33,533 bases of DNA from Bacteriovoracaceae bacterium (GTDB lineage Bacteria > Bdellovibrionota > Bacteriovoracia > Bacteriovoracales > Bacteriovoracaceae), in assembly GCA_023137315.1 (NCBI GenBank), contig JAGLPP010000126.1:1-33533 (forward strand), written 5' to 3'. The notes beneath the pieces are model-generated. The model was not told where the DNA came from. It searched no databases and saw nothing but the letters and a program-made list of their open reading frames with translations. Position 1 is the first letter of the stretch; each line of letters begins with the position of its first letter. The position numbers and the translations under genes are program-made. This document shows positions 2,316-33,533 of this stretch, one piece after another.

Positions 2316-2342
2316 AAAAAAAAGGGGACTAAATGTCCCCTT
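2316..2342 (-). terminator. Rho-independent terminator of the porin-like gene
   Basis: On the minus strand an 8-bp stem AAGGGGAC / GTCCCCTT with a 5-base loop is followed by a run of T (complement of 2316-2323). It lies about 40 bases after the stop of the gene at 2380-3429. Confidence 0.85.
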
Positions 2343-2379
2343 ATGCTAAAAATTTATTTATATTTTACAAATTTTGCAG

Positions 2380-3429
2380 TTAGAATTTGTATTCGATAAT
2401 CGATTTAAGATTATATGAGCGATCCCGGTCACTGTCGGCCCTGATGCCGGAAATGTCAGCGATGCCAACGATCATGAAGGCCTTGGTGAATTTGTAATAG
2501 TATTCGAAACCGATCTCATGAACCGATTCAGCTGTTCCATTTTTTTGGTAGACAAAATAGATGTCAGCTGAAACCTTTTCAGAGAAATCTTTTCCAATCT
2601 CAATGTAGTTCTCTATTACAGGCTTGATATTGTCCGTATATTTACGCCACATGAACTGATTAAGAATCCATGAGTCGCATGGCAGGTTAAAAGTCAGGTC
2701 CGGTGTAAACTGGCGGTATTCCGCTACGTCCTCCATGTGGGAACCGTTAAATCCAAGTCCCATGTCAATCTTAAAGTCTTTGGAAGCCTTGACGCTGTAT
2801 GAAACACGACCGCCGTAATAGCTTGCCTCTGGTTCGTCGGCAGGACTCATGCGCTGGCTTTCATCCATATAAATATATGACATATCAAAAGAGAAGTTTC
2901 CATATTTGAAGCGAGGAAAGAATCCAAGTCCGACCTCAAGTTCGGCTAAAGCCAGAACATCGTATTTGTGGTGGAAGTTAATGTTTCTTCCGGCATCGAT
3001 TTTAAAGTTTTCATTATAGGTATATGTCGTATATGCGCGAGCGAAGTAAATGCCCGGCGTCGTTCCGCCATTAGCGTTGGAAAGAGCTCCGCTATTAGAG
3101 TTGGAAAAGTGTCCCTGCCTGTAGTCAAAGCGGGAGTGAAATGCCCAATGCTCGTCCTTTTGTCCGTCCACATAAAAACGAAAGTATGGCATTCTGAGAT
3201 TCTTGTCAGGGTCTTCGGTGAAATACATATAGAGTCTTGTGAAGCCATGAACATGTAGTGATGATTTTTTCTTTTTATCGAAGAAAAGTTTGTAACCATC
3301 ACCAACCTTGCTTTCGCCTCGAAGTGCTACAGAGGTGTCTTTTTCCCCTTTTTTGCTGGTAGCTGCAAATGCCGAGGTTGAAATTAAAACCATAAGTGTC
3401 ATTATGATTAGAGCGATTCTTAGCAACAT
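2380..3429 (-). CDS. Porin-like outer-membrane beta-barrel protein
   Basis: The 349-residue protein begins with a clear signal peptide (MLLRIALIIMTLMVLISTSAFA, cut after residue 22). It continues as alternating aromatic and polar strands such as FTRLYMYFTED, YFRFYVDGQKD and FARAYTTYTY. It ends in YKF, the terminal aromatic expected for BAM-dependent barrels. It most resembles general or phosphate-selective porins in form, but substrate cannot be read from sequence. The ATG at 3427-3429 follows CAGGAGA. The leader holds an inverted repeat (3465-3479). It has its own terminator and is monocistronic. The signal peptide and barrel are well supported; the porin role is inference. Confidence 0.8.
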   Translation of the reverse strand: MLLRIALIIMTLMVLISTSAFAATSKKGEKDTSVALRGESKVGDGYKLFFDKKKKSSLHVHGFTRLYMYFTEDPDKNLRMPYFRFYVDGQKDEHWAFHSRFDYRQGHFSNSNSGALSNANGGTTPGIYFARAYTTYTYNENFKIDAGRNINFHHKYDVLALAELEVGLGFFPRFKYGNFSFDMSYIYMDESQRMSPADEPEASYYGGRVSYSVKASKDFKIDMGLGFNGSHMEDVAEYRQFTPDLTFNLPCDSWILNQFMWRKYTDNIKPVIENYIEIGKDFSEKVSADIYFVYQKNGTAESVHEIGFEYYYKFTKAFMIVGIADISGIRADSDRDRSYNLKSIIEYKF

Positions 3430-3464
3430 GATGTCTCCTGGTGTGAAAGTTGGATATATTTCCG

Positions 3465-3479
3465 AAGGTTATATACCTT
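3465..3479. repeat. Inverted repeat in the porin leader
   Basis: AAGGT-TATAT-ACCTT, a perfect 5-bp inverted repeat, lies 36-50 bases upstream of the porin start codon. It could be an operator or a small leader hairpin; sequence alone does not decide. Confidence 0.3.
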
Positions 3480-3598
3480 ACCGAAACTCTTGGTTTAAAT
3501 ATTTACACTATTTGCAAAAAGATAATCAAGAAAAATTTTTTATGAATACAAAAAAGCGGGCAAAATTGAGACATGTCAAGTGTTGGAAAATGTAAGAA

Positions 3599-3634
3599 TT
3601 GACCCGGCAAGGGATATGATCCTTACGGGGTCAA
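3599..3634 (-). terminator. Hairpin, probable terminator of the 60-residue lipoprotein gene
   Basis: A long imperfect hairpin has an outer stem TTGACCC / GGGTCAA and an inner stem AAGGAT paired with ATCC(C)TT. It lies 30 bases after the stop of the gene at 3665. The following minus-strand bases (TTCTTACATTTTCC) form only a weak U-tract. Confidence 0.5.
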
Positions 3635-3664
3635 TTTCAAGGTGTTGAGTCTTATTACTTGTCG

Positions 3665-3847
3665 TTATTTTTCAGTAGTGTAGTGCCTTTTCTTTAGCTT
3701 CTTTTCACGCTCCTGCCAGATCATGTCTTGATCTTCAGGGGAATGAATACTTGCCGTATCCCTTTTTCCCTCATAGTGGGAACAGGAGACAAGCACTAAA
3801 GAGCACATAAACAAAGTAATAATGCTCAGGGTAGTTATTCGTTTCAT
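3665..3847 (-). CDS. Small lipoprotein, 60 residues
   Basis: The product starts MKRITTLSIITLFMCSLVLVSC, a lipoprotein signal with lipobox LVSC and lipidation at Cys22. Ser at +2 is compatible with outer-membrane sorting in well-studied Gram-negatives. The remaining 38 residues are highly charged (QEREKKLKKRHY near the C-terminus). The ATG at 3845-3847 is preceded by GGGAGGG, a strong ribosome site. A hairpin follows the stop. No family is recognised. It is read divergently from the WaaA-like operon. Confidence 0.75.
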   Translation of the reverse strand: MKRITTLSIITLFMCSLVLVSCSHYEGKRDTASIHSPEDQDMIWQEREKKLKKRHYTTEK

Positions 3848-3939
3848 AAACCCTCCCAGTGGTACCTATGCAGACTTGTCGGTGTGTGGCGTAAAAACTT
3901 TAGCGTTTTTGTCGGTTTTTGTTGCGTGAGTGGAGTGCC

Positions 3940-3968
3940 GTGACAATTAATTGTGTGTTTCGTACGAT
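3940..3968 (+). promoter_or_regulatory. Sigma-70-type promoter of the 4020-7031 operon
   Basis: GTGACA (3940-3945), a 17-base spacer, and TACGAT (3963-3968). A perfect 12-base palindrome ACAATTAATTGT (3943-3954) overlaps the -35 and the spacer and could be a repressor site. Predicted start is near 3975. Confidence 0.5.
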
Positions 3969-4019
3969 TTTGGTAACTTATATCAATAGCATTCCTTGGT
4001 GACGTGTTTGAGGTTTTTC

Positions 4020-5405
4020 ATGACGCGATTTTTTCTGGTCGGTTATTATTTTATTGCCTGTCTTGTTAGAACGGTGATTTATCCGTTGCTGCATGTTGTC
4101 TCAACTTTTCATCCGTGGATCCGGCGTAGAAAAAAATTCGAGGATAAAAATCGAACTGATGAATTGTCAGTTTCTTTTCTTGAAACAGGAAGAAGGGCCG
4201 ATATTGCGTTCGAGGTATCCAGTGAGGGGGAGCTTGAACAAATCAGACCGGTTTTATTGCAGGCACTTGAAGAAAAACAAAATGTGGAACTTGTTTATTC
4301 CAGCGAAAGTGTTGAAAAAAAATGTGTTTCCCTGGCATCAATGCACAGGGATAATTTGAGAATTCTAAGACTTCCAATTATCACGTTTTCGTTGTTTCCA
4401 TGGCCTTCTTCGCAGAATATTTTTAGCTGGTTGACAGCAAAAAAACTGATTCTTTGCAGGTATGATTTTTTTCCGGAACTTATGCTTTATGGGGGAAGAA
4501 GCGACGTTGTTTTTATTCTATTGTCCGCAACGCTTAAAAATAAAAAAATACATGGTTTGAGAGGAATTTTTTGCAGGGAAATTTTTAATTTTTTCAAACT
4601 CATTGTTTCGGCAACCGACAGGGATGCGGATCGTTTCATGGAGCTTGGAATTGAGCAAAAAAAAATCAGTGTATTTGACTTCAGAGTCATTCAGATAATG
4701 GATCGCATGAAAAATGCCGGCAGTGTTTTAAAAAAGTGGGATTTCTTTGAGGATTATAATGGATATCTGGATGGTTTTTCCATTGATTCCAGACTTTTGT
4801 TTGGCAGTGCATGGCCGTCAGAGATGGGCGTTTTTAAAAATCACGAGTTTATAAAATGCATTATGGATGGAAAAATTTCGGTCACCATTGCTCCTCATAA
4901 ATTAGGGAAGGGATTTATTGATGAAATTATTAATTCAATAAAAAAGTTCGCTAATGATCCGCTTCTTGAAATTTATCATTTGTCCGGTGATATGAATTCC
5001 GATGAGATTCGGGAATTGTTTTTAAATTTGAAGAAAAAACCCGGTATTCTTGTCAGTTCGGTTCCCGGTATCCTGTGTGAACTTTATTCGTTGCATGGAA
5101 ACGTCTTTGTTGGAGGAGGGCATGGAAGATCAATTCATTCCGTGTTGGAACCATATCTGGCAATGGCGAATGTTTTTTGCGGGCCAAAGGTTCACCGCTC
5201 GACAGAATATGATTTTATTCTTGATAATTCCCCGGATTTTATCACTATCGTTTTTGAGATTGATAAATTTTATGAGATATTCAATGAGAGATACCAAAAA
5301 GTTATTGATTCTGGAAAAAGGAAAAAGTTAATGACAGGATTTGATGTACAATTCATTGATGTCTATCGGAAGATTCTTGGGAAGGGGTGCGATTTGTATG
5401 CTTGA
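4020..5405 (+). CDS. Divergent WaaA/KdtA-like Kdo transferase (GT30-like)
   Basis: The family transfers Kdo from CMP-Kdo to lipid A precursors at the inner face of the cytoplasmic membrane. The 461-residue protein has an N-terminal membrane anchor (MTRFFLVGYYFIACLVRTVIYPLL). VSSEGE (catalytic Glu near residue 71) sits where the family has SVGE. GSAWPSE falls at the start of the second Rossmann half, and VFVGGGHG at 362-369, with Glu377 in the LEP motif and FCGP, corresponds to the family's nucleotide-binding GGS...HNPLEP...GP block. The ATG at 4020 is chosen because GAGG lies six bases upstream; earlier TTG and GTG codons at 3996 and 3999 lack a ribosome site. The loss of the usual NPLEP wording suggests a diverged acceptor or role. 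It overlaps the next gene by 8 bases. Confidence 0.7.
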   Translation: MTRFFLVGYYFIACLVRTVIYPLLHVVSTFHPWIRRRKKFEDKNRTDELSVSFLETGRRADIAFEVSSEGELEQIRPVLLQALEEKQNVELVYSSESVEKKCVSLASMHRDNLRILRLPIITFSLFPWPSSQNIFSWLTAKKLILCRYDFFPELMLYGGRSDVVFILLSATLKNKKIHGLRGIFCREIFNFFKLIVSATDRDADRFMELGIEQKKISVFDFRVIQIMDRMKNAGSVLKKWDFFEDYNGYLDGFSIDSRLLFGSAWPSEMGVFKNHEFIKCIMDGKISVTIAPHKLGKGFIDEIINSIKKFANDPLLEIYHLSGDMNSDEIRELFLNLKKKPGILVSSVPGILCELYSLHGNVFVGGGHGRSIHSVLEPYLAMANVFCGPKVHRSTEYDFILDNSPDFITIVFEIDKFYEIFNERYQKVIDSGKRKKLMTGFDVQFIDVYRKILGKGCDLYA

Positions 5406-6816
5406 GAAAAATGTTGACATGGCCCTGATAGGAAAAAACTATCCATCCTTCTTATTGGGACTTGATCTATTGAAAAAAGGTAAAAAGGTATTACTCCTGG
5501 ATGATGATCGTTTTCGTTACGGGGAGTCGTTTACAAATTATATCGGCGATATTGAAAGAAATTTTCTTATTGAGTGTGGAAAGGAACTTGATTCGGGGCC
5601 TTTGATCAAAATTGATAATTACCTTAAAAGAAAGAACCTGACATATGATTTGTTGAATAAGAGGATACGTCTTGGTGCTGATCCATGGATGAATTTTTTG
5701 GAACTTTCCAGAAAGTTTTTCTTTTGTTGGGATAACGAAAAAAATTTAAAAAGGAATGAATTCCATGCACTGATCAAGAATTGCTCGGGCCGCAAAGAGT
5801 TCAATGTCCATTATGACGGTGTTGTGAAAAAGATGGCGTCCATGATTTTTCAAATGGACAGTACCGTGGAGCTGACTTTTGAAAATATTACCAAATGTAA
5901 TCTTGGAAACCTGATTGATCTGTTCATACCTTTTCGAAAATCAGTTCTTTCCGATGACCTTTCCGTTGATACCAGATTACATGACTTCCATACGATGATT
6001 TATGCGGCCAGGGGGTTTTACCATAACAAACCTGCCTTCTTTGGAAATGATCTTGAACTTTTGCATCTTTTTCTCGGATTATTGTCGCCGCTGTATGAAG
6101 TTGATAATGAACGTTTGCAGTCTGATCTTATGGACTGCTTCACAAGAGAAGGCGGATATTTCAAAAAGGCCTGGATCAGTGAATATTTTTTCGATAAACA
6201 AGTTCCATGGGCCATGGAGCTTGATAGCTTTGAAGGGGTTGTATTCCCCGAAATGATTTCTTTTTTGGGGACACTACCTGAGGGGGTTCCAATAAAATTT
6301 GCACCTCAAAGTGAATTGTATGCCTCGGCCGTAATTTCATGGAAGAACGATGATGTTCGTCCATGTCATGAGGAGAATGAAGTTTGGATTTTTTCATCTG
6401 TTGATAAAATTGGCACAAATGAACCGTTTTGGCAGATGTGGTTTTCTGAAGGACGGATAACGGCAATGATTTATTTTTGTCACCAAAAAGGGATGAAGCT
6501 CAATTTTGTAAAAAAATCCCTTATGAGGAATCTGGAAAAGGAATTGAAAAGGCATGGGTTTTCGGTTTCTGAAGGATTTCAGGATGCAGACGTACAATTC
6601 TCCACAGATGTTTGTATTCGTGAAGAGAAAATATCCATTTCGCAAATGGACAGGCAGATTCAGGGAAGGATTGCTCCAAGGGTTATGAGCATGGATGAGA
6701 ATGGAGGCCTGCAGTTACTCAAAAAGGTCTATTATTTGGGGCCTGTGGTAAAGAAGCCTCTTGGATTGATTTCCACACTTCATGAATTGAATGTCAGTCG
6801 AAAGGGATGGGTATGA
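5398..6816 (+). CDS. Rossmann-type protein of unknown function
   Basis: The 472-residue protein opens with MLEKNVDMALIGKNYPSFLL and continues into KGKKVLLLDDD. This has the shape of a nucleotide-binding beta-alpha-beta unit (hydrophobic strand, glycine turn, helix, second strand ending in acids), as in FAD/NAD(P) oxidoreductases, but the GxGxxG glycines are not intact. No second recognised motif was found and no transmembrane helix is obvious. The start at 5398 follows GAAGGGG and overlaps the WaaA-like stop by 8 bases; the 3' end overlaps the next start as ATGA. Such coupling suggests that the three products act together, perhaps in envelope glycolipid or surface modification, but no reaction can be assigned. 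Confidence 0.7.
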   Translation: MLEKNVDMALIGKNYPSFLLGLDLLKKGKKVLLLDDDRFRYGESFTNYIGDIERNFLIECGKELDSGPLIKIDNYLKRKNLTYDLLNKRIRLGADPWMNFLELSRKFFFCWDNEKNLKRNEFHALIKNCSGRKEFNVHYDGVVKKMASMIFQMDSTVELTFENITKCNLGNLIDLFIPFRKSVLSDDLSVDTRLHDFHTMIYAARGFYHNKPAFFGNDLELLHLFLGLLSPLYEVDNERLQSDLMDCFTREGGYFKKAWISEYFFDKQVPWAMELDSFEGVVFPEMISFLGTLPEGVPIKFAPQSELYASAVISWKNDDVRPCHEENEVWIFSSVDKIGTNEPFWQMWFSEGRITAMIYFCHQKGMKLNFVKKSLMRNLEKELKRHGFSVSEGFQDADVQFSTDVCIREEKISISQMDRQIQGRIAPRVMSMDENGGLQLLKKVYYLGPVVKKPLGLISTLHELNVSRKGWV

Positions 6817-7120: not shown

Positions 7121-8194
7121 CTAGAAGGTTACAAGTAGTCCAGCATTTATGGCAAAGAAATGTGCTTTTTCGATATCAGAGCCAAATCCTTCGAGTCTTT
7201 GCTGGTCATGGTTGTTGTATCTGGACTTGACATCCGCTTGGGTGTCGATTCCCCCTAAAAACCCTTTTGAATAATTCAATCCGAGCACCATGCCCACATG
7301 ATCGGTAAATCTGACCTCTGAGCCCAGAAGAAGCGATCCTGAAACGTAGCTTGAGGAATATTCCTCGTCGCCGTAGTAAACGTTATTGTAGGAATATGGT
7401 TGTGACTTGTCCTGATCAGTGTATTTAAGACTGGCACGGTTGTAATTTACACCCAGCCCGACATAAGGCCTGAGTCTGGATTCCTCTGTTAGAAAAAATT
7501 TGGAATTGATTCCGACAACCGTCTGGCGATAGTCAATCTCACGTCCCTGTCCATAAGTGGAATAATATGCGGAATTGTAAGGAGCACTTACATAATTGTA
7601 GCTACTGCTATTATTCTGATCAACGTCAGTGAGTGCCATAGTGGCGTAGCTGAACTGGAGACCCACTGAAATCCTCTTGGTGAGCATGGATTCAACGGAT
7701 ATTCCTGCGTTGATTTTTGATTCGAAATCACAATTTTCCCCCTGAATATTAAGCACACCCAAAGTTGGAATGATTTTGACTTCTTCTACTATTTTTTTCT
7801 CTGGTTCAGCCTGCACAGGGGCCGGAGCAACCACTTTTGGGGCCGCTTGTTGTACAACCACCGGTTGTTCATCCATCGCCTGAAGCTGACCCTGAAACAT
7901 TTTCTGAAGCTTTTTAGTCATTTTCGCTTCAGCTTTCATTCTTTCATCTTCAATCTTCTTTCTGGTCATCTCTTCGTTTTTCTTTTCCAGCTTGCGTCTC
8001 ATTTGTGCCAACTTGTCTGCAGCACTTTTTCTTCTGAAGCTGCCATCAACATCAAGTTGTTGTGAATTAAGCACATCTTCAGTTTCGTCTAGCAAGGGAT
8101 CAATTTGCGCCATGGCCGTCGATGCGCCTGCCGCGATAAGTATGGAAAAGACCACGGGTAAATATTTACGCCCTTTCCTGTTTGTGGATTTCAT
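7121..8194 (-). CDS. Outer-membrane beta-barrel protein with periplasmic coiled coil
   Basis: The 357-residue protein has a signal peptide (residues 1-29, ending STAMA). A charged, Lys/Glu/Met-rich segment at about 55-105 is predicted coiled coil, followed by a Pro/Ala/Val linker. The C-terminal half is an eight-strand-type OmpA-like or OMP_b-brl barrel: VGLQFSYATM, RPYVGLGVNYN, GSLLLGSEVRF, and a final GLLVTF ending in Phe. The ATG follows AAGGAGG at ideal spacing, so high expression is likely. A 17-base leader hairpin (8214-8230) lies just upstream of that site. It shares the bidirectional terminator at 7044-7084. The coiled coil before the barrel could span periplasm or form oligomers; the role is unknown. 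Confidence 0.8.
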   Translation of the reverse strand: MKSTNRKGRKYLPVVFSILIAAGASTAMAQIDPLLDETEDVLNSQQLDVDGSFRRKSAADKLAQMRRKLEKKNEEMTRKKIEDERMKAEAKMTKKLQKMFQGQLQAMDEQPVVVQQAAPKVVAPAPVQAEPEKKIVEEVKIIPTLGVLNIQGENCDFESKINAGISVESMLTKRISVGLQFSYATMALTDVDQNNSSSYNYVSAPYNSAYYSTYGQGREIDYRQTVVGINSKFFLTEESRLRPYVGLGVNYNRASLKYTDQDKSQPYSYNNVYYGDEEYSSSYVSGSLLLGSEVRFTDHVGMVLGLNYSKGFLGGIDTQADVKSRYNNHDQQRLEGFGSDIEKAHFFAINAGLLVTF

Positions 8195-8213
8195 GCTGAC
8201 CTCCTTAAGTCAC

Positions 8214-8230
8214 CCTGATTTAAAACCAGG
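8214..8230 (-). promoter_or_regulatory. Leader hairpin upstream of the barrel gene
   Basis: In RNA, CCUGGUU pairs with AAUCAGG (one G-U pair, 3-base loop), ending about 8 bases upstream of the AAGGAGG ribosome site. It may influence mRNA stability or ribosome access; this is inference. Confidence 0.3.
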
Positions 8231-8463
8231 AAGCTTAGTCGTTTTATTACACATAGCATCACAATTGTTTTAGCTCAGTTTTGCCTTTTTTTCATCATTT
8301 TTACGCGTTGCGTGAATATTTTACACAGGGCCGCGAATTGTCCCTAAATAATATCTGTGGGATTGTTTATTTTTTTCCAATTATTCCGAATAGTTCTTAG
8401 TATTTTGACGATGAATGTTTGTAAAATAATGGACAACGAATAAGTTGTTCGAGGTTATTGATA

Positions 8464-9789
8464 GTGCTGACAACGGAAATTGAACAGGGACATGCTCTGG
8501 ATCGTGAAGTATTCCATGAATTTCTTGGAAAAGGTGAGATTCTTGTGGTTGATCCGGTACGTGTTGCGGCAGAAAGATTGCGAAATATTCTAGTTAATCT
8601 TGGAGCAGATGAGAAAAAAATAACAATCGGCCTTAATTTTGATGATGCTGTAAAAATAATGAGCGATAAAAGGCCGGATGTTGTAATTAGTGAGTATGTT
8701 CTTGGTGATGGTTCAGCGTTTGATCTTTTTCTTAAGTACAGGGAAATCAGGGATGATCAAATTAACTGTCTTTCCATCATGGTTACCTCCAATACCTCAC
8801 AGGTCCATGTTGCGCGTGCTGCAGAAGAGGATGTGGATGCCTTTATAATAAAACCATACGACACGGAATTGATTAAAGAGGTTCTTGTTGAAGGGACTAA
8901 AACGAAAATCAATCCATCAAAATATATCAAGTTTGTTCGACAGGGCATGGATATGCTTTTGCAGGGAAAACCGTATGAGGCCATTGAGATATTGAGTGAA
9001 GCAAAAAAAATGACGGATAAACCAACGCTTGCGCATTATTATCTCGGACAGGCGGATGTTTTGATTCAGGCCATGGAATCTGCCGAGGATAATTATGTTG
9101 AAGGACTTGACCACAACGAAATTCATTTCAAATGTTTGAATTCCCTATTTGATATTTTAATGGAGGAAAAGAAATACCAGAACGCCTATGAGGTGGTAAA
9201 AAAACTTGTAAAGTATTTTCCGGCCAATCCTGAACGCTTGAGCAAGATTTTAAGACTGGCCATTATTACTGAAAATTATGAGGATATCGAAAATTACTAC
9301 AATATCTTTATGGATTTGGAATTTTCTAATGAAGGTCTGACAAGGTATATTTCGGCAGGACTTGTCACCCTTGGAAAATACTTTATGGGCCAGGGGCGAA
9401 GAAACAGTGCACTCGATATCTTTAGAAATGCCGCTGAAGTCAGCAACGGAAAACCCATTATATTAAGAAATATCATCGAAGGACTCGTGGATCGTCGCAT
9501 GTTTGTTGAAGTGGAAGCATTCATGGAACGTTTTGCAGATAAAGACAGGGAAACACAGGATTACAGGATTTGTGATTTTTTGGCCGGCGGGTTTACCGGG
9601 GATGTGGATGCGTCCATTGATAAGGGATATAAACTTGTTAATGGGGAAATGGTGTCCAATAGAACTGTTTACAAGGTTTTGGATTTTCTTCTGATGGCAT
9701 CTGATAGAAATGCCGAGGCCGTTGAAATTCGTAAAAAGAAAGATAAAATTTTTGGTGCTATAAGGATGGCCAAAAAAAGTGCCGTATGA
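8464..9789 (+). CDS. Pseudo-receiver (CheY-like) protein with TPR-type helical domain
   Basis: Residues about 23-145 form a CheY-like receiver: EILVVDP, then DVVISEYVLGDGS, SIMVTSN and FIIKPYD. Aligned on Thr108 and Lys130 (matching CheY Thr87 and Lys109), the phospho-acceptor Asp is replaced by Glu77, and one of the two metal-binding acids is Pro, so normal phosphorylation is not expected. The rest, to residue 441, is helical with TPR-like pairs (GKPYEAIEILSEAKK, HYYLGQADVL). GTG at 8464 is preferred because GAGG lies nine bases upstream; the TTG at 8458 is only three bases from it. It is probably a phosphorylation-independent scaffold or output protein. The gene is followed after 12 bases by a LolC/E-like permease, a likely operon. 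Confidence 0.85.
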   Translation: MLTTEIEQGHALDREVFHEFLGKGEILVVDPVRVAAERLRNILVNLGADEKKITIGLNFDDAVKIMSDKRPDVVISEYVLGDGSAFDLFLKYREIRDDQINCLSIMVTSNTSQVHVARAAEEDVDAFIIKPYDTELIKEVLVEGTKTKINPSKYIKFVRQGMDMLLQGKPYEAIEILSEAKKMTDKPTLAHYYLGQADVLIQAMESAEDNYVEGLDHNEIHFKCLNSLFDILMEEKKYQNAYEVVKKLVKYFPANPERLSKILRLAIITENYEDIENYYNIFMDLEFSNEGLTRYISAGLVTLGKYFMGQGRRNSALDIFRNAAEVSNGKPIILRNIIEGLVDRRMFVEVEAFMERFADKDRETQDYRICDFLAGGFTGDVDASIDKGYKLVNGEMVSNRTVYKVLDFLLMASDRNAEAVEIRKKKDKIFGAIRMAKKSAV

Positions 9790-9801
9790 TACAATTTTCA
9801 T

Positions 9802-10968
9802 GTGTTTCTGGAATTTTCACGATATTTTTTCAATTATATCTTCAAAGGTAAAAACAAGCAGCGCCTTTTGCTTTTGGCCGCGTTCGGGTTGTTTATTTCC
9901 AGCTTTTCCCTGTTAGTGCTTCAGAGCACGATGGGAGGTCTCCAGCACAAGCTTGTCAAAAGATCAAAAAGAGTCATGGGAAATGCGATCTTGTATCTTG
10001 ATAATGAGGATATGAAATTCGCAAGGAAGGTTAATGGTTTTCTTGAAAAAAACTCAATAAAATCCGTCATGGAATATGAAATTGAACTTCTTCTTAGAAA
10101 TGAAAAATATCCGTCTCCTGTTGTTGTTCATGGAATTGATGAAAACGGGCCGATTCCGGAGTTTTTAAAAGGTGTTTATTTAACTGATCTGGTCATAGGA
10201 GGAGATCTTGCGATTAAGATAAATCTGGTGGACCAGGGGGAGAAGGTGAGATTGATATCACCTTCCCATGTGGATTCCTTTATGGGGGATATACCGCGAA
10301 CAACTTCCCTGTTTGTCGATAATATTATCACCACTGATGTTCCGGAAATTGATTCATTTCACACATGGACATCTCTTTCTGTAATTCAGAATTTGATAAG
10401 GAAAATTGCGGTCAACAGAATCAGAATTTATGGAGAAGTGGATTTTAAGAAACTGAAGTCATCACTTTATACGCTTTTTGGAAACGGGATTGAGTTTAAA
10501 ACATGGGAGGAGGAAAATAACACCCTTGTATGGGCACTCCGGCTTGAAACAACTGTTATGGTTTTTCTTTTTGTTGCCATGACCGGACTTGTTTCCCTGT
10601 GTATAACCTCGGGATTCATGATTTTTTTCGGTAAAATCAAAAACGATATGGCAAGTCTTTGGATCATGGGGGCAAGCAAGAAAAGGCTCGAAAGAGTTGC
10701 CATGCTTTTTATAAATCTTTTGAGTGCGTTCACTGTCCTGGCCGGCTTGTTTGCAGGACTTGTTTTTTTGTATCTTTTCGATCATTACGGTATTGATGTG
10801 ATGCCGGATATCTTTATTGACAGGAAGATTCCCGTTCATATTACGATGAAGGGGATTTTTATTTCAGCTGCAATTCCATATGCAATCTCAATTTTCTTTT
10901 CAATGTTTTCATTAAACCAGTTTAAAAGACAGGTTGACTACCTCAAACATGTTAGAACAATTGGTTAA
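9802..10968 (+). CDS. LolC/LolE-FtsX-type ABC transporter permease
   Basis: The 388-residue protein has the MacB/FtsX/LolCE layout. There is one membrane helix near residues 20-41, a large periplasmic domain of about 200 residues, then three helices near 248-275, 296-325 and 348-368. The LWIMGASKKRL segment between helices matches the cytoplasmic coupling loop LxxMGAsxxxI of LolC/LolE. Known relatives extract lipoproteins from the inner membrane with the ATPase LolD; no ATPase gene is adjacent here. The GTG start at 9802 has only a weak ribosome site and lies 12 bases after the receiver-TPR stop, so translational coupling is likely. Substrate is inferred from family only. Confidence 0.8.
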   Translation: MFLEFSRYFFNYIFKGKNKQRLLLLAAFGLFISSFSLLVLQSTMGGLQHKLVKRSKRVMGNAILYLDNEDMKFARKVNGFLEKNSIKSVMEYEIELLLRNEKYPSPVVVHGIDENGPIPEFLKGVYLTDLVIGGDLAIKINLVDQGEKVRLISPSHVDSFMGDIPRTTSLFVDNIITTDVPEIDSFHTWTSLSVIQNLIRKIAVNRIRIYGEVDFKKLKSSLYTLFGNGIEFKTWEEENNTLVWALRLETTVMVFLFVAMTGLVSLCITSGFMIFFGKIKNDMASLWIMGASKKRLERVAMLFINLLSAFTVLAGLFAGLVFLYLFDHYGIDVMPDIFIDRKIPVHITMKGIFISAAIPYAISIFFSMFSLNQFKRQVDYLKHVRTIG

Positions 10969-10990
10969 TTCGAAAGTTTTTTTGTAAATT

Positions 10991-13309
10991 TTATTTCAGC
11001 TTAAAATCCTTCAAAATTGCGAATGGATTATTTTTTAGCGGTTCGTCAGTTATTTGCTGTTTTTTGGCCGGCATTCTTGATTTGCCTTTATCACCTGTTT
11101 GGGCCGTCGATTGTGTATTGGCATTTACGGAGCTGTCCTTTTTACGTGTCAGCGATATTCTCTTTCTTTCAAGGTCAATATTGAGAACCCTGACCTTGAC
11201 GGATTCGCCGACCTTTAATTCATTGAGGGCATTTTCGACAAACTTATCCGCCATCTGGGAAATATGGAGTAATCCATTTTCCTTGATGCCTATATCAACA
11301 AAGGCACCAAACTGTGCAATATTGGTGACCACACCCGGGTACCATTCACCAATTTTAATATCTGTTATCTCGCTTAGATCTTTTCTGAAGTCCGTGGATT
11401 TAAACTCTGTTCTCGGGTCCTGGGAGGGGGCCTTCAGTGAGCTTATTATATCCTTGAAGGTGAATTCTCCGAGCTTCTTTTTTAGATTATTGTCTTTTTC
11501 AAGCTCTCCGATTATTTGCTCGTTGTTGACGAGATCAGCTATGGAATGATTATGATCTGTCGTCCAGGCCTCAAGGTGTTTGTAGCTTTCAGGATGAATA
11601 AATGTTCCATCAAGCGGGTTTTTACTGTTGTAAATTCTTAGAAAACCGGCGGCCTGTTCAAAAACCTTTTCAGAAAAACGCGGTATTTTTTTAAGCTCCA
11701 TCCGTGAAGTGAAAATGCCGTTTTTTTCACGATGTTTGACGATATTATGCGCCAGTGTCGAGTTGATGCCAGAGATGTGGGAAAGTAGCGGGGCCGAGGA
11801 TGTGTTAAGATCAACGCCAACGTGGTTGACACAGTTTTCAATAACACCACAGAGTGATTTTTTTAACTGTGTCTGATTCACATCATGCTGGTACTGGCCG
11901 ACTCCTATTGATTTTGGTTCGATTTTAACCAGCTCCGCCAATGGGTCCTGGAATCGTCTGGCGATGGAGACAGCACTTCTTACAGTCGGTTCCTTGTCTG
12001 GAAATTCCTGGCGTGCGATATCGGAGGTGGAATAGATGCTGGCACCGGCCTCGGAGGTGATGGTTGCCTTGACCTTTCCTGTTACAACTCCTGAAACATA
12101 TTTTTCAAAAAATGCAAGTGTTTCACGACAATAGGTGCCGTTTCCAATAGCTATAAATTCTATATTGAACTGATGAATAAGTGCATCAAGAATTTGTGCC
12201 GACTGTGTCTTGTGGTTTTGCGGAGGATGCGGATAAATAACGGTATCCACGATATATTTTCCTGTATGATCTATAACAGCGAGCTTGCATCCGGTTCTGA
12301 TGGCCGGGTCTACGCCTAAAACGGATTTGGGCCCGAGATATGGGGCAAGCAGGACGTTTTTCAAATTAACCTGGAAGATTTCAATGGCATGAATGTCGGC
12401 ATTTTTTTTAAGCTCACTTTTTAGTTCAAGGTCAAGCGATGAGTGGATGTAATTTTTCCATGCCCGTGAGATACAGTCTGTCATTAACTGTTCACACTTT
12501 GAGGAAGTGTTTAAATATTTTGAGGAAATGATCCGTACAGCTTCATCCTGTTCGAATGTAACGTTGACTTTTAAAACCTTTTCATTCATTCCGCGTCTGA
12601 TGGCAAGATAGCGGTGGCATGATTTGGCATTGACCAGTTTGTTCACTGGTTCGTTGTATTTAAAATAATCGCGGTATTTATTGTGAGTCTTGATTGTTTC
12701 TGCACTCGATTTTTTTTCGGCAATCATAAGGGAATGGTCCCAGTACAGCTTTCGAAATTCATCCTTGAGTTGTGTATCATGTGCAATCGTTTCTACAATG
12801 ATGTCCATTGCTCCATTGATGGCATCGTCAAATGAGATTATCTTTTTTTCAGGATTTAAAAAATCATGGCCGTATTTTTTTTCGATCTCATCTTTTGACA
12901 TGTCTCCTTTCATGATAATTTCAGCAAGTGGATGGAGACCTGCCTCTTTTGCCAATACTCCCTTTGTTTTTTTTCTGGCCTTGAAGGGGGAGTAGATATC
13001 CTCAAGCTGATTAAGCGTTTGTGCCTGGTTTATTTTCTTTTCAATTTCAGGGGTTAGTTTTTCCTGCTTTTCTATGGCCTGTAGAATGTATTTTCGGCGT
13101 TTCTCTGTTTCAAGATATTCCTCATACTCCTCATGGATTTTCATGATTTTGACTTCATCAAGATCGCCTGTTTGTTCCTTTCTGTAACGGGCAACAAACG
13201 GAACGGTACATTCTTCGGTAATCATCAGCCTGAGAACGCTGGTAACAATGTTTGCGTGGATATTTGTTTTTTGCGCCACATGTCCGATGGCATCAACGAC
13301 CAGATCCAT
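10991..13309 (-). CDS. tex: Transcription accessory protein Tex
   Basis: The 772-residue protein matches Tex in length and order. It has the helical N-terminal domain (VPFVARYRKEQTGDLDE), the YqgF/RuvX-like RNase H-fold domain beginning VLGVDPAIRTGCKLAVID (about 333-450), helix-hairpin-helix repeats around 490-570, and a C-terminal S1 RNA-binding domain at about 652-722 (GVVTNIAQFGAFVDIG). A Lys/Gln-rich tail follows. Tex binds nucleic acids and the transcription machinery; the exact role varies among species. The ATG at 13309 follows AGGAG and a good sigma-70 promoter lies upstream. It converges with the LolC/E-like gene with a 22-base gap and no clear terminator hairpin. Confidence 0.96.
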   Translation of the reverse strand: MDLVVDAIGHVAQKTNIHANIVTSVLRLMITEECTVPFVARYRKEQTGDLDEVKIMKIHEEYEEYLETEKRRKYILQAIEKQEKLTPEIEKKINQAQTLNQLEDIYSPFKARKKTKGVLAKEAGLHPLAEIIMKGDMSKDEIEKKYGHDFLNPEKKIISFDDAINGAMDIIVETIAHDTQLKDEFRKLYWDHSLMIAEKKSSAETIKTHNKYRDYFKYNEPVNKLVNAKSCHRYLAIRRGMNEKVLKVNVTFEQDEAVRIISSKYLNTSSKCEQLMTDCISRAWKNYIHSSLDLELKSELKKNADIHAIEIFQVNLKNVLLAPYLGPKSVLGVDPAIRTGCKLAVIDHTGKYIVDTVIYPHPPQNHKTQSAQILDALIHQFNIEFIAIGNGTYCRETLAFFEKYVSGVVTGKVKATITSEAGASIYSTSDIARQEFPDKEPTVRSAVSIARRFQDPLAELVKIEPKSIGVGQYQHDVNQTQLKKSLCGVIENCVNHVGVDLNTSSAPLLSHISGINSTLAHNIVKHREKNGIFTSRMELKKIPRFSEKVFEQAAGFLRIYNSKNPLDGTFIHPESYKHLEAWTTDHNHSIADLVNNEQIIGELEKDNNLKKKLGEFTFKDIISSLKAPSQDPRTEFKSTDFRKDLSEITDIKIGEWYPGVVTNIAQFGAFVDIGIKENGLLHISQMADKFVENALNELKVGESVKVRVLNIDLERKRISLTRKKDSSVNANTQSTAQTGDKGKSRMPAKKQQITDEPLKNNPFAILKDFKLK

Positions 13310-13348
13310 ACTAACTCCTGATGGGATGGGTATTAGAGTGTAATCTTA

Positions 13349-13377
13349 ATAATTTAAAAAAACTGCCCAATTGTCAA
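13349..13377 (-). promoter_or_regulatory. Sigma-70-type promoter of tex
   Basis: The minus strand has TTGACA (complement of 13372-13377), a 17-base spacer and AATTAT (13349-13354). Just upstream, CAATTGGCC...GGCC...CAATTG can fold and is followed by TTTTTTT inside the spacer, so the end of the preceding gene (13404-13916) and the tex promoter appear to share the same bases. Confidence 0.6.
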
Positions 13378-13403
13378 GGCCGTTGGCCAATTGAGTGGAG
13401 GCG

Positions 13404-13916
13404 TCAATTAAAAAAAACGCAGAGATTATCATCATTGTTTTTTAAAATGTTCGAGGATAATTTTGAATCAGTTTCAAGAATGTTTATGATTGCGTTAAGA
13501 TATTTTAGGGGATTTATGATCCGGCCATGTTTTTTGAGGCAAAGTTTTGTAGGGCCGTTTTTTTCAAGTTTTGCCAATATAACCCTTGAACGCTCAAAGG
13601 AATCGAGAAAATCCCCGTTTTTAATCTCGTCAAGTTCAATTTTTGGATTGAGTGAGGCGATTGTTTTTACAAAATAGTAGCAAGTGACCATCCCGTCACC
13701 TTTTTGAAGTTCCTCAAAAGGGCCGTGATGTGAGCTGTTTTTGATATTGCTTATATAAAAATCCAGGATATCGACTTCATTGGTATCGGAACAAATTCTA
13801 ACCTGGGAATATTCATTGAGTTCCTGCTGGCCATGGATAAGTTTCTCCAACAGTGAACTGTTCGCGTTGGAAATTGAGATGAGAAACAGTAAAAGGAAGG
13901 AAGTCGTTTTAATCAT
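13404..13916 (-). CDS. Small secreted protein of unknown function
   Basis: The 170-residue product begins MIKTTSFLLLFLISISNANS, a typical signal peptide. The mature part contains several Cys (ICSD, VTCYY, KLCLK, NLCVFF) that could form disulfides, and is otherwise helical and charged. The start at 13916 is chosen because GAGGGG lies six bases upstream; an in-frame ATG 33 bases further out would put eleven polar residues before the signal peptide. It lies between tex and tRNA-Met on the same strand, with a promoter candidate at 14026-14054. No family is recognised. Confidence 0.7.
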   Translation of the reverse strand: MIKTTSFLLLFLISISNANSSLLEKLIHGQQELNEYSQVRICSDTNEVDILDFYISNIKNSSHHGPFEELQKGDGMVTCYYFVKTIASLNPKIELDEIKNGDFLDSFERSRVILAKLEKNGPTKLCLKKHGRIINPLKYLNAIINILETDSKLSSNILKNNDDNLCVFFN

Positions 13917-19203: not shown

Positions 19204-20259
19204 TTGAAAAAGTTATCAATTTTGAGCGTTGTTTGTTTGTTATTGTCAATAGTTATATCAGGATCAGCATTTTCCAATCACCATCCTGTATCTTTTGAGT
19301 ATTTTAACGAAATTCTAAGTAATATCGACAAGGTTGTTTATGGGGATGATAACAGGGTTTTGGTTGGAAATTATGTTGACGAAAAATTCAAAAAATTTGC
19401 CGATTCAACCGCTGCCTTGATTCCAAGAAAACAGATCATTTTTAGAGATGGATTTGCCGTTGTCAACAATAAGACATTAATGCAGGAATTAGAGATATGT
19501 GAAGATGAACAATGGGCCAATATATCAGCTATTGCCATGTGTTCCGGTTTTTTGGTTGGAGAGGATCTTTTGGCAACTGCCGGTCATTGCGTGATGACAC
19601 AGAAGGAGTGTGAAGAAAATGTCTCATGGGTATTTGATTACAGGGCGGATATCATCGGTGACGGAAGTTTGTTGTATCTCCCGAAGGAAAACGTTTACCA
19701 TTGCAAGGAAATCGTTGAAAGAAAGCTAAACGAACACACAGAGGTGAGAAGTGATTTTGCAATAATAAGACTTGATCGTGCCGTTGTCGGAAGGGATGTT
19801 TTAAAGGTAAGAACTGAAGGAAAGATAGAGGATGGTTCCGAGCTTGTTATTATCGGTCATCCATCCGGATTGCCAACAATAATTGCAGATGGTGCCAATG
19901 TCCGTGATAACGATGCACATTATTTTTTCAGTGCCAACCTTGATTCCTTTGGTGGAAATTCTGGATCGGCCGTTTTCAATAGAGAGACAGGGCTTGTTGA
20001 AGGTATTCTTGTTAGGGGTGAAAGGGATTATATACTTGATAAAGAGAAAAAATGCTACCATGTTAACAAATGTTCGGATGATGAATGTCGCGGTGAAGAT
20101 GTTTCAAGAATAACCGCCATAAATACCATTGCTCCGTTTGGAAAAGCATGGCTCGAGCCGATTCCAAACGAGGATAATCTTAAGCCATACAACCCATGGC
20201 CATTTCCATTTCCGTTTTCTGATTTCTATATTCTTAATTTTGACGGGGGAAATAAGTAA
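19204..20259 (+). CDS. Secreted trypsin-like serine protease (S1), paralogue A
   Basis: The 351-residue protein has a signal peptide (about 1-24), then VVYGDDNR at 44-51 and a chymotrypsin-fold domain. The triad is His128 in ATAGHC, Asp184 in SDFAIIRLD and Ser253 in GGNSGSAV. After the domain comes a Cys motif C284-x5-C290-x4-C295-RGEDV and a Pro/Phe-rich tail to the end. The TTG start at 19204 is supported by GGGAGG upstream; no ATG is nearby. It is a paralogue of the gene at 22943, which has the same N-terminal and Cys motifs but lacks the long tail. Exported protease; the target is unknown. For a predator it could digest prey or remodel the bdelloplast, which is inference. Confidence 0.9.
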   Translation: MKKLSILSVVCLLLSIVISGSAFSNHHPVSFEYFNEILSNIDKVVYGDDNRVLVGNYVDEKFKKFADSTAALIPRKQIIFRDGFAVVNNKTLMQELEICEDEQWANISAIAMCSGFLVGEDLLATAGHCVMTQKECEENVSWVFDYRADIIGDGSLLYLPKENVYHCKEIVERKLNEHTEVRSDFAIIRLDRAVVGRDVLKVRTEGKIEDGSELVIIGHPSGLPTIIADGANVRDNDAHYFFSANLDSFGGNSGSAVFNRETGLVEGILVRGERDYILDKEKKCYHVNKCSDDECRGEDVSRITAINTIAPFGKAWLEPIPNEDNLKPYNPWPFPFPFSDFYILNFDGGNK

Positions 20260-22904: not shown

Positions 22905-22942
22905 AACCGAGCTGATTGGTTGCCGTTAACAAAGGGAGTAGT

Positions 22943-23812
22943 ATGAAATTGAATTTTCTTGTTTTCCTGGCCTTGTTTTTTGTGAATTCTATGACATGTC
23001 ACGCTACAAACAAGGTGGTTTACGGTGAAGATAACAGGATTGATATTGTTGAGGCCACAAGCAATATTTATGTTGAGCTGGCAAAATCAACTGCGGGAAG
23101 GATTACTCCTTCAAGATTAAAGGTCAAAGATAATGTTGTGACCATTACTGGTGATTCGCTTGTTTCAAGAGGAATCTGCTCTGATGAGCGTTTTGCAAAT
23201 CAGATTTCAGCAACTGATTGTTCAGGGTTCCTTGTAGGCGAGGATTTGTTGGTAACGGCCGGACATTGTATGAGGGATATGCGCGACTGTTCTGGATACA
23301 GATGGGTTTTCGACTTCAAATATGACGGATCGGATACTTACGAAGTTCCACAAAGCAGTGTCTATGAATGTGCTGAAATAGTTGATCAAAAACTCAGTCG
23401 CATAACGAAGGAAGACTATGCGCTCATCAGACTTGATAGAAAAGTTACCGACCGTGAACCACTAAGGGTAAGAAAAACCGGAAGAATTGCCGACGGAACA
23501 GAGCTTTTTATCATCGGACATCCAACCGGGCTTCCCACAAAGGTCGCTGACGGAGCAGCTGTAAGAACCAATACAAATGATTACTATTTTGTTTCAAATC
23601 TTGATTCATTCGGAGGTAATTCCGGATCGGCCGTGTTTGATGCCGACTCTGGTACAGTGGAAGGAATCCTGGTTCGTGGAGAAGTCGATTATGTCTATGA
23701 TCCTTCTGCTGGTTGTAGGAGAGTGAAGCAGTGTGACAGTGATAGCTGTAGAGGTGAGGATGTTACCCGGATAACCAGGGTGGCCAAGCTTATGGAAACG
23801 CTGAATAACTGA
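22943..23812 (+). CDS. Secreted trypsin-like serine protease (S1), paralogue B
   Basis: The 289-residue protein has a signal peptide (1-21), VVYGEDNR at 25-32, and a triad of His108 (VTAGHC), Asp158 (EDYALIRLD) and Ser217 (GGNSGSAV). The tail is the motif C248-x5-C254-x4-C259-RGEDV-TRI. It is clearly paralogous to the protease at 19204 along its whole domain. The VVYG segment near the mature N-terminus takes the place of the IVGG activation site of trypsin. Whether it is a cleaved propeptide junction is inference. The ATG at 22943 is supported by AAGGGAG; a TTG 27 bases earlier would run through that ribosome site. The subtilase gene follows after 27 bases. Confidence 0.92.
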   Translation: MKLNFLVFLALFFVNSMTCHATNKVVYGEDNRIDIVEATSNIYVELAKSTAGRITPSRLKVKDNVVTITGDSLVSRGICSDERFANQISATDCSGFLVGEDLLVTAGHCMRDMRDCSGYRWVFDFKYDGSDTYEVPQSSVYECAEIVDQKLSRITKEDYALIRLDRKVTDREPLRVRKTGRIADGTELFIIGHPTGLPTKVADGAAVRTNTNDYYFVSNLDSFGGNSGSAVFDADSGTVEGILVRGEVDYVYDPSAGCRRVKQCDSDSCRGEDVTRITRVAKLMETLNN

Positions 23813-25189: not shown

Positions 25190-25215
25190 CTGACCACACT
25201 TAACTGATCACACTA
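25188..25215. repeat. 14-base tandem duplication between two stop codons
   Basis: AACTGACCACACTT is followed at once by AACTGATCACACTA (12 of 14 identical). The pair spans the end of the subtilase gene and the stop codon of the convergent recombinase gene. No terminator hairpin is seen here. Confidence 0.5.
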
Positions 25216-26169
25216 ATAATCGAGTTTATAGACAGGGGAGTCGGAAAGTTTTCGCCTCCTCTTGTCATATTCCTGTGTTGTCTTGACTGATGAGTGGTTG
25301 ACCTCTTGTGCTACGCGATAGATATCCACACCAATTTCAAGAAGTTCACTGATAAAGGTTGCACGGGCCGAATGTGGGCAGATATTAAAGGTAAGATTTA
25401 TTTTTTTGGCATAGTTATTTAGAATTTCGTTTATGGTCTTTGGATTTAAGGGCTTATTGAGGTTTTTTGGATCGGCCGGATTTTTTGTTGGTTGAAAAAA
25501 CCAGTCTTCCGGGATGTGCTCCCTTTTTTGATCTTTCATCCACTGAAGATATTCTTTCAGGGCATCCACACAGATGGGATGGAGAATCTTCTGGCCGCGT
25601 TTACCACCTTTCCCTCTGTATTTGAGAATATGATGTCCGTTGAGCTTTGTGTAATCCTTTCTTCTTAGATGCAGAATTTCCTGTTTGCGAAGCCCTGTTG
25701 TAAAAAATGTTAAAAGAAGTGCCTTATGCATTTTTCCGGATTTTTTATTTTGATCTATGGCATCAATAAGTGCTCTGACCTGTTCTCCATTGAGCGCATT
25801 GGTCGGTGTTACGACTTCACTTCGTGGTCTTTTTATTGATGCAGTTGGATTGGATTTTACAATATTGCGTTCAGAAAGATAGTTGAAATAGCTGGAGATT
25901 GCGGCCAGTTTGCGGCATATGGTTTTAGGAGAGCAGGGATCACCATCACGACCTCCTGTCTCATAAAGGAAGTTTCGAAATTTCACCACATGTCTTTTTT
26001 CAATGTCAGCAAGAGTGTTTATGTTTGAAAAACCATCTTGCATGAAGTCAAAAAATTGTTTGATATCCCGGCGATATGAAATACGTGTATGTTCCGAGGT
26101 AAGTTCGTCAAAAAAATCCTCGTAGAGTGGAAACTTGTTTTCTTCATCATTATATGTGGAATTATTCAT
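25213..26169 (-). CDS. Tyrosine recombinase of XerC/XerD type
   Basis: The 318-residue protein has an N-terminal SAM-like core-binding domain (about 15-110) and a catalytic domain with all active-site residues. These are Arg161 in TTGLRKQE, a Lys in the YRGKGGKRG turn (about 185-188), His266 and Arg269 in CPHSARAT, His292 in EVNHSS and nucleophile Tyr301 in QEYDKR. LGH of XerC/D is here VNH. It could be the chromosome-dimer XerC/D or a stand-alone integrase; there is no partner, att site or phage gene beside it. The ATG at 26169 follows AAGGT. It converges on the subtilase gene and diverges from the FecR gene through a symmetric -10 element. Confidence 0.88.
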   Translation of the reverse strand: MNNSTYNDEENKFPLYEDFFDELTSEHTRISYRRDIKQFFDFMQDGFSNINTLADIEKRHVVKFRNFLYETGGRDGDPCSPKTICRKLAAISSYFNYLSERNIVKSNPTASIKRPRSEVVTPTNALNGEQVRALIDAIDQNKKSGKMHKALLLTFFTTGLRKQEILHLRRKDYTKLNGHHILKYRGKGGKRGQKILHPICVDALKEYLQWMKDQKREHIPEDWFFQPTKNPADPKNLNKPLNPKTINEILNNYAKKINLTFNICPHSARATFISELLEIGVDIYRVAQEVNHSSVKTTQEYDKRRRKLSDSPVYKLDY

Positions 26170-31605: not shown

Positions 31606-32685
31606 ATGACAAAGGTTGGATTTGTCGGATGGCGTGGCATGGTGGGCCATGTTCTTATGGATAGAATGAATGAGGAAGGTGATTTATCACGGATTAATCC
31701 CGATTTTTTTTCCACATCAACTCCTGGACAAAAAGGCCCTCAAGATCAAATTTTAAAGGATGCCTTTTCCATTGATGAGCTTTCACAGATGGATATTATT
31801 TGCACTTGCCAGGGGAGTGATTATACAAACAAGGTTTATCCTGAATTAAAAAGAAGAGATTGGAATGGATACTGGCTGGATAGCTCATCGGCCATGCGAA
31901 TGAATGAAAATGCCGTGATTATTCTTGATCCGGTTAATGGAAATGTCATTGATCGCGCGATTGATCAAGGCATTAAGATTTTTGTCGGCGGTAATTGTAC
32001 TGTCAGCCTTATGTTGATGGCCATAGGAGGACTTTTTAAGGAAAATCTTGTGGATTGGGTGAGTACGATGACCTATCAGGCGGCTTCCGGCGCAGGCGCA
32101 AGACATATGTTCGAGCTGATGGATCAAATGTCTTTTCTTGCAGGCAGCGCTGTTGATAACAAGGATGCTCTTTCGCTTGGTAAACTTGTTCAGAAAAATA
32201 TGGAGCATGCTTCATTTCCAACCGGGAATTTCAATGCACCATTGGCGGCAAGTCTGATCCCGTGGATTGACGATGGGATGAAAGACGGTCGGACAAAAGA
32301 GGAATGGAAAGGTGAGGTCGAGCTTAATAAAATTTTGGGATTAAAACCGCCAGTGCCGGTTGATGGCATCTGTGTGCGGGTTGGTGCTTTTCGTTCACAT
32401 AGTCAGGCACTTACCATAAAACTTAAAAGAGATGTATCCATAGCGTCTATTGAGGATATCGTAAAAAATTCAAATAAATGGGTGAAAGTTATTCCAAATG
32501 AAAAAAAACAAACCCTGGATAAGCTCACTCCGGCAGCGGTTAGCGGGACGCTGGATATTCCTGTTGGAAGAATGAGAAAAATGACTATTGGAAAGGAATA
32601 TCTGACATTGTTTACAGTGGGAGATCAGCTTTTGTGGGGGGCCGCAGAGCCAATACGAAGAATGCTCGGGATTTTGTGTCGATAG
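31606..32685 (+). CDS. asd: Aspartate-semialdehyde dehydrogenase
   Basis: Asd makes aspartate semialdehyde for lysine, threonine and methionine synthesis. The 359-residue protein begins MTKVGFVGWRGMVGHVLMDR, the NADP-binding start of the enterobacterial-type enzyme. It has the nucleophile Cys131 in GGNCTVSL, the YQAASGAGARHM segment and the late active-site His in GAFRSHSQALTIKL. The ATG at 31606 follows GGGG at five bases; a GTG two codons earlier overlaps that site. The last codons (IRRMLGILCR) lie within a sequence repeated 633 bases downstream at 33286, so the 3' end of this gene is a junction of an inserted islet. Confidence 0.96.
   Translation: MTKVGFVGWRGMVGHVLMDRMNEEGDLSRINPDFFSTSTPGQKGPQDQILKDAFSIDELSQMDIICTCQGSDYTNKVYPELKRRDWNGYWLDSSSAMRMNENAVIILDPVNGNVIDRAIDQGIKIFVGGNCTVSLMLMAIGGLFKENLVDWVSTMTYQAASGAGARHMFELMDQMSFLAGSAVDNKDALSLGKLVQKNMEHASFPTGNFNAPLAASLIPWIDDGMKDGRTKEEWKGEVELNKILGLKPPVPVDGICVRVGAFRSHSQALTIKLKRDVSIASIEDIVKNSNKWVKVIPNEKKQTLDKLTPAAVSGTLDIPVGRMRKMTIGKEYLTLFTVGDQLLWGAAEPIRRMLGILCR
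32653..32683. repeat. Direct repeat, left copy (inside the asd 3' end)
   Basis: A 23-base exact core, ATACGAAGAATGCTCGGGATTTT in two parts (32653-32672 then 32673-32675), is followed by 8 bases with 2 mismatches. It is identical over 29 of 31 bases to 33286-33316. It encodes the last residues of Asd, up to two bases before the end of the stop codon. Confidence 0.85.
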
Positions 32686-32837
32686 CCATGGTTCCATACA
32701 GATACTAAAGCTTTTACATACTAACAAATTTTTGCTTGATCGGGTACGATGCGAGGTGCTACAAGTCTCTTTGTTCACACATATTGGTAACATTCTCAAC
32801 AGAAGAACCAGATACCAGTATTTTGGAGGAAAATATT

Positions 32838-33272
32838 ATGAAAAAACTACTATTATTTGTATTATTGCTGACTACAACAATTGCATTTGCAAATGAAAAC
32901 CGCTGCGGAAAGATTTATGTATCAAGTAGTTCTGGCGAGATAATGGAGTCATTAGATCAGGCAAATATCAAATATGAACTAGTTGATGGTGCTTACGACG
33001 CAGAGCAGAGACTTGAAAACACAGATATTTATCTAGAAATGTGGTATTACGAAACAAATCATAGAAATTTTACAACATTATGGAATCACAAAACTGTTGT
33101 TTATTTTGGAATCAAGACCTTGGAAATGACAAACAATCAATTAACAGAAATAGATGAAAAGAAAGCAAAAGCTTCGTACTATAGAGACATAGATGGTTTG
33201 CAAAAAGTCGAAAACAAAATCATGGCCAATACCAGCAAAGTTATAAATCAATTAAAAGAATACTGCAATTAA
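32838..33272 (+). CDS. Small secreted protein in the asd islet
   Basis: The 144-residue product begins MKKLLLFVLLLTTTIAFA, a clear signal peptide cut after Ala18. The mature part has two Cys (ENRCGKIYV near the start and KEYCN at the very end) that could pair, and an alpha/beta look (KIYVSSSSGEIMESLDQANIKYE, then VVYFGIKTLEMT). The ATG at 32838 follows GGAGG. Codon use is much richer in A-ending codons (CTA, ATA, ACA, GAA, AAA) than in neighbouring genes, which fits recent transfer. The gene stands alone between two direct copies of the asd 3' end. No family is recognised. Confidence 0.8.
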   Translation: MKKLLLFVLLLTTTIAFANENRCGKIYVSSSSGEIMESLDQANIKYELVDGAYDAEQRLENTDIYLEMWYYETNHRNFTTLWNHKTVVYFGIKTLEMTNNQLTEIDEKKAKASYYRDIDGLQKVENKIMANTSKVINQLKEYCN

Positions 33273-33285
33273 ACATATAGGGCTG

Positions 33286-33316
33286 ATACGAAGAATGCTC
33301 GGGATTTTATATCGAT
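33286..33316. repeat. Direct repeat, right copy (displaced asd 3' end)
   Basis: It matches 32653-32683 in 29 of 31 bases and in the asd frame still reads IRRMLGILYR. It runs directly into a terminator hairpin, as expected if this was the original downstream flank of asd. Confidence 0.85.
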
Positions 33317-33332
33317 TCCCGTTGTTTTTTTT
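33300..33332 (+). terminator. Rho-independent terminator overlapping the right repeat
   Basis: CGGGA (33300-33304) pairs with TCCCG (33317-33321) over a 12-base loop and is followed by TTGTTTTTTTT. The stem is short but the T-run is strong. It now ends the islet gene; before insertion it would have ended asd. Confidence 0.55.
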
Positions 33333-33390
33333 GAGTTCTGGAAAAATTGTGTGATGCCTTTTTTGATAGACGCTCCAGGTAACTGGATGC

Positions 33391-33533
33391 TCAAATTTCA
33401 AAACTTATAATATATTCGGTGTTTTCAGGAAGACTTAGTTTTGGGGGAGAGATATCCCATTTCCCAGAAATCTTCATTTCTTTTAATGACAGTTCGAGAT
33501 GGCACATTGCAATTCCCACATCAATGTGTTGCA
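33391..33533 (-). CDS. C-terminal fragment of a probable nitroreductase-family protein (runs off the window)
   Basis: On the minus strand the last 46 codons before a TGA at 33391-33393 are open to the window edge. They read QHIDVGIAMCHLELSLKEMK, then ISGKWDISPP and a C-terminus in EYIISFEI. The pattern [DE]xGIAMCHxELxxKExxxxGKW followed by a terminal YI[IV] strand is that of the C-terminal end of a nitroreductase-like flavoprotein family. This is pattern recognition on a short piece, so the family call is moderate. It converges with the islet gene. Confidence 0.6.
   Translation of the reverse strand, partial: QHIDVGIAMCHLELSLKEMKISGKWDISPPKLSLPENTEYIISFEI

Follow-up and report, generated by a model that had tools for sequence, protein, structure and literature searches.

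The intact asd gene of the window (the whole stretch of DNA that was analysed, 33,533 nucleotides) is followed by a 602-bp islet that carries a single gene for a small orphan protein and that is bounded by two direct copies of the asd 3′ end. There is good support for an insertion that separated asd from its terminator. The islet looks like a one-off insertion scar, of a kind already known; a travelling cassette system is without support. As to how the DNA arrived, we lean, tentatively, towards a decayed or miniature integration at the asd 3′ end, resembling the elements known as CIMEs. The islet offers a clean, small case of a gene added behind an essential metabolic gene that is left unbroken and whose terminator is taken over; as known so far, it is a single, unrepeated event.

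The asd tail repeat and the gene between its copies

The asd gene encodes a full gamma-type enzyme (TIGR01745, 536 bits, above cut-off), and its last 31 coding bases recur at a start-to-start distance of 633 bases, with 29/31 bases identical and a 23-base exact match (Table 1). A longer alignment of the two copies covers 48 nt at 81% identity (32646-32693 and 33279-33326), and their in-register identity falls to background about 15-20 bases out, on the left as on the right. When up to 3 mismatches are allowed, the 23-mer has two sites in the 3.15-Mb genome, both at the edges of the islet. Within the window, the asd pair is the sole exact repeat of at least 16 nt at a spacing of 60-6000; in stretches sampled from the same genome, 186 kb with the window counted in, further exact repeats of this length occur solely inside one tandem-repeat gene. 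The asd-tail repeat is real and non-random, not the product of chance.

Table 1. Features of the asd 3′ region, in window coordinates
Feature	Position	Strand	Basis or remark
asd, aspartate-semialdehyde dehydrogenase, intact	31600/31606-32685	+	TIGR01745, PF02774, PF01118
Left copy, attL-like	32653-32683	+	Final asd codons and first base of the stop codon; without terminator hairpin
Cargo gene, orphan 144-aa protein	32838-33272	+	ORF, GGAGGA ribosome site, signal-peptide-like start
Right copy, attR-like	33286-33316	+	Displaced asd 3′ end, without stop codon
Terminator-like hairpin and T-run	33299-33332	+	Folding; formed from the right copy plus the following bases
TM1586-type nitroreductase, 3′ end	33391-33533	-	Convergent; continues on contig C189, 25-nt overlap
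asd-like core against which att sites would be matched			ATACGAAGAATGCTCGGGATTTT

Translated in the asd frame, the right copy gives IRRMLGILYRFPLFFLSSGKIV and then a stop codon, but it has no stop at the position of the asd stop, so that the original 3′ end either had a 12-codon extension or was mutated later. Together with the bases that follow, it forms a hairpin (CGGGA...TCCCG) before a run of eight T residues, with a folding energy of -10.9 kcal/mol and a z of -2.65 (fold of 33290-33333), which was not called by a simple terminator scan that considers loops of 3-8 only. Folding of the left copy yielded no terminator hairpin. The terminator that once adjoined asd seems to have been carried to the other end of the islet. 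With the terminator-like hairpin confined to the far copy, transcription of asd is expected to continue into the cargo gene, and we infer read-through via this gene to the displaced terminator. These results bear out three statements of an earlier note made from the sequence alone: that the asd tail is duplicated 633 bases downstream (here with just two sites genome-wide), that the right copy is still readable in the asd frame and runs into a terminator (here a terminator-like hairpin with its T8 run), and that DNA was inserted behind an intact asd, which the hairpin on the far copy and the asd flank of a relative (see below) both support.

The islet proper (32684-33285) has a GC content of 33%, compared with 40% for the window. 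The single secreted-type gene of 144 residues that the earlier note placed between the copies is present, with a signal-peptide-like N-terminus (MKKLLLFVLLLTTTIAFA), and the islet is free of an integrase, as had also been noted, its one ORF being without a family match. Judged by eye, the cleavage site is likely AFA-NEN, without a lipobox, and the mature form has two cysteines close to its ends. No Pfam, PHROGs or PADLOC family matches the cargo protein, nor does any NCBIfam family above cut-off, and a search of 368 further genomes of the phylum and of plasmids, phages and viral contigs turned up no credible relative. The best match in the phylum (E=3.5e-4) contains two stop codons and was treated as noise; likewise, a gene behind acs on contig C92 was rejected as a relative, its likeness consisting only of a ribosome site and a signal-peptide start. 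An Rfam search gave no match. A low-confidence, single-sequence AlphaFold2 model of the cargo protein (pLDDT 68.9, pTM 0.60) predicts the order beta-alpha-alpha-beta-beta-beta-alpha, for which Foldseek returned LptE, CT253, GNA1162 and PelC (best E 4.7e-5, TM 0.33-0.50); a viral fold library contained no match at E <= 0.001. The modelled fold gives a hint of a weak resemblance to the LptE/PelC type of small periplasmic accessory protein, short of an assignment.

The asd flank in relatives

The right copy ends 217 bp before the contig end, which falls inside the 3′ end of the convergent nitroreductase gene. Contig C189 overlaps this end by 25 bases and continues the nitroreductase frame, unbroken, to completion; beyond it lie genes for a trypsin-like protease and a 134-aa protein, followed by more genes. 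In a genome of another genus of the same family (G017), 7 bp separate asd from a convergent ortholog of the C189 protease (51% identity), which is followed by an ortholog of the 134-aa gene, and synteny extends to the other side of asd (dapB-dapA-dapD and TPR genes). Given this adjacency of asd and protease, the islet and the nitroreductase gene are both surplus to the G017 arrangement. A more distant protease (36%) is located 0.3 kb past asd in a second genus (G093, locus L105), an arrangement that favours a gain in the lineage of the window over a loss in G017; the protease family is multicopy, however. The nearest asd among the compared relatives, none of which is of the same genus, has 60% protein identity.

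Several smaller observations concern the same region. Three paralogous trypsin-like exported proteases surround the asd/dap region (window 19204-20259 and 22916-23812; L152:839-1750). Four relatives (L021, L022, L023 and L024) have a short motif similar to CGCAGATTCC or CCAGATTCC 5-40 bp past the asd stop. A possible third asd remnant in the gap between nitroreductase and protease is weak (21/31 bases; equalled in 4/200 shuffles, with two queries) and is not claimed.

The earlier note had further suggested that asd may be a hotspot that holds other cargo in relatives, and that the islet may be a passive cassette mobilised in trans. Neither suggestion was supported. A duplication of the asd 3′ end in the downstream DNA (up to 10 kb), above shuffled controls, was seen at 0/57 same-family asd loci, several genomes being counted twice with a short and a long stretch. 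With up to 2 mismatches, the 23-mer is absent from the 368 other phylum genomes; 18-23-mers of the repeat are absent from viral contigs. In the comparison of asd downstream regions that the note had proposed, G017, of another genus, lacks the islet, and other cargo between repeats was found at none of the same-family loci. Its proposed search for a recombinase linked to the same repeat revealed no asd-like site near any of the integrases tested.

In three species of one genus, a tyrosine recombinase gene lies 0.8-3.4 kb downstream of asd (G136:C1, L120; G120:C6, L125; G121:C39, L131), preceded by a gene for a protein of about 195 aa, and in congeners the space from asd to the same MoxR/transglutaminase backbone is occupied by other genes. 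These recombinases were considered and rejected as insertions of the islet type: they belong to a conserved two-gene neighbourhood and have no asd 3′ repeat.

Possible origins of the islet

The islet would be the scar of one insertion of DNA into the asd 3′ end. The incoming DNA would have brought its own last asd codons together with the gene for a small orphan exported protein; asd would be intact because these codons were supplied with it, and the original 3′ end with its terminator would have been pushed 633 bp downstream to become the right repeat. In the reading that we put first, with some reserve, a small element integrated at the gene 3′ end, leaving the left copy as attL and the right copy as attR. 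It may have been miniature at the outset or have shrunk later, as a CIME or microCIME does from a decayed integrative element, and a tyrosine recombinase may have carried out the integration before decay set in. At present, the islet is probably immobile; it has no recombination gene of its own.

CIMEs (cis-mobilizable elements, which are decayed ICEs or IMEs with attL and attR retained) and microCIMEs that keep att sites at gene 3′ ends have been described (PMC7563491, PMC5704250); in Streptococcus salivarius, microCIMEs measure 130-220 bp and hold no genes, and CIMEs measure 1.2-13 kb (PMC7563491). Like these, the islet has direct repeats (the asd-tail pair, as putative att sites) at the 3′ end of an intact housekeeping gene, and it contains cargo and no integrase, transfer or other recombination gene. 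Unlike them, it holds one gene in 602 bp, a size between those of published microCIMEs and CIMEs, and no parent ICE, IME or integrase with its site was found near the integrases of the genome, two of which lie on short contigs that may lack their element ends; reuse of the site, another property of CIMEs, was seen at 0/57 same-family asd loci, and a hotspot role of asd in the family is without support. In favour of 3′-end integration, the repeat stops where the coding sequence of a conserved housekeeping gene reaches its stop codon, and similarity fades soon on either side; the uniqueness of the repeat, the hairpin confined to the right copy, the gene order in G017, the low GC and the orphan cargo also speak for it. 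Against it count the lack of a linked recombinase and of a second use of the site, and the missing stop codon at the asd position of the right copy. If strain-level genomes had other cargo at the same core, a lower size limit for att-flanked cargo (~0.6 kb, one gene) would become firmer.

A close rival, if a less probable one, is homology-facilitated illegitimate recombination (HFIR), in which linear DNA of a relative (the asd end and the next gene) recombines homologously within asd on the left and is joined illegitimately near the recipient's asd 3′ end on the right, shifting the old 3′ end and terminator downstream. Such events have been demonstrated in competent species and, as a rarity, during E. 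coli conjugation (PMC3240628), and the same route has been proposed for modules of T6SS and Rhs loci that displace an old gene 3′ end (PMC5361080). Their hallmark, a duplicated recipient end behind the insert with no recombinase, is present here. HFIR needs no recombinase, second site or hotspot, and fits the negative results. A suitable donor layout is plausible, as a co-directional exported-type gene stands behind asd in 20/50 relatives, which by this liberal heuristic is no enrichment over local background. The islet resembles the T6SS and Rhs displacements in that the old 3′ end sits downstream, behind a newly arrived gene, and differs in what was displaced: 31 bases with at most a terminator, compared with whole immunity genes or long 3′ regions (PMC5361080). 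HFIR is rare, however, and the illegitimate joint must fall, by coincidence, within the final 31 bases of a ~1.1-kb gene. A duplicated piece consisting of exactly these last 31 bases is canonical for site-specific integration and a coincidence for HFIR, whereas the absence of a recombinase, a second site and alternative cargo favours a one-off such as HFIR. On balance, we place 3′-end integration slightly ahead.

Campbell integration, in which a small circle with the cargo gene and a piece of the asd 3′ end enters by a single RecA-type crossover, would yield the same direct-repeat layout and is, in our view, unlikely. Homology of ~23-31 bases, which is all that the copies offer, is very short for an efficient RecA crossover, and no related circle or plasmid was found. 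As such, the integration of circularised DNA by a single crossover has been described (PMC3240628).

Somewhat less likely still is a local duplication of the asd end (in tandem or as a gene-conversion scar) with later divergence and with the cargo gene already in place. It would account for copies that are linked and in the same orientation, but a tandem duplication should also repeat the DNA behind asd, where similarity fades within ~15 bases, and in G017 just 7 bp separate asd from the protease.

We hold it very doubtful that the islet is a one-gene, integrase-less cassette that enters the asd 3′ end, rebuilds the last codons, is mobilised in trans by an unlinked tyrosine recombinase from other mobile elements of the host and swaps exported-protein genes among related bacteria. 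An integron gene cassette is likewise one small gene in a unit of ~0.6 kb, but the repeat of the islet is a duplicated asd 3′ end in one pair, there is no array, and no tyrosine recombinase of the genome reaches the integron-integrase cut-off. Least probable of all is an artefact of assembly or of mixed strains close to a contig end: the assembly has 223 contigs and the islet lies 217 bp from the end of one, but the right copy differs in sequence from the left, and C189 joins by its 25-nt overlap with an unbroken nitroreductase frame and shares its gene order with the asd flank of G017.

Tyrosine recombinases of the genome

The genome encodes five tyrosine-recombinase (PF00589) proteins, one in the window and the others on contigs C122, C82, C141 and C164. 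None of the five reaches the cut-off of TIGR02249 for integron integrases (265 bits), and none has a link to the islet; the nearest is the Xer-like gene at 25213-26169. Counterparts of this gene with 43-70% identity occur in over a dozen genera of the family, frequently on the contig that bears asd, and its closeness to asd is probably ancestral; as it is a conserved resident, a link between it and the islet was rejected. A search for the asd-like core near the integrases of the genome gave nothing beyond shuffles, C122 and C82 being short contigs on which element ends may be missing.

Some of these recombinases lie in neighbourhoods of interest in their own right. C122 (L060) and C82 (L061) are related, each with a phage-type integrase, a helix-turn-helix protein, an SSB-like gene and a toxin-antitoxin-like pair, and are probably two related integrative elements or plasmids. 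On C141 (L062), a transposase-like gene shares the stretch 7311-13688 with a divergent phage-type integrase, a replication-relaxation-like gene and two Fic-like proteins.
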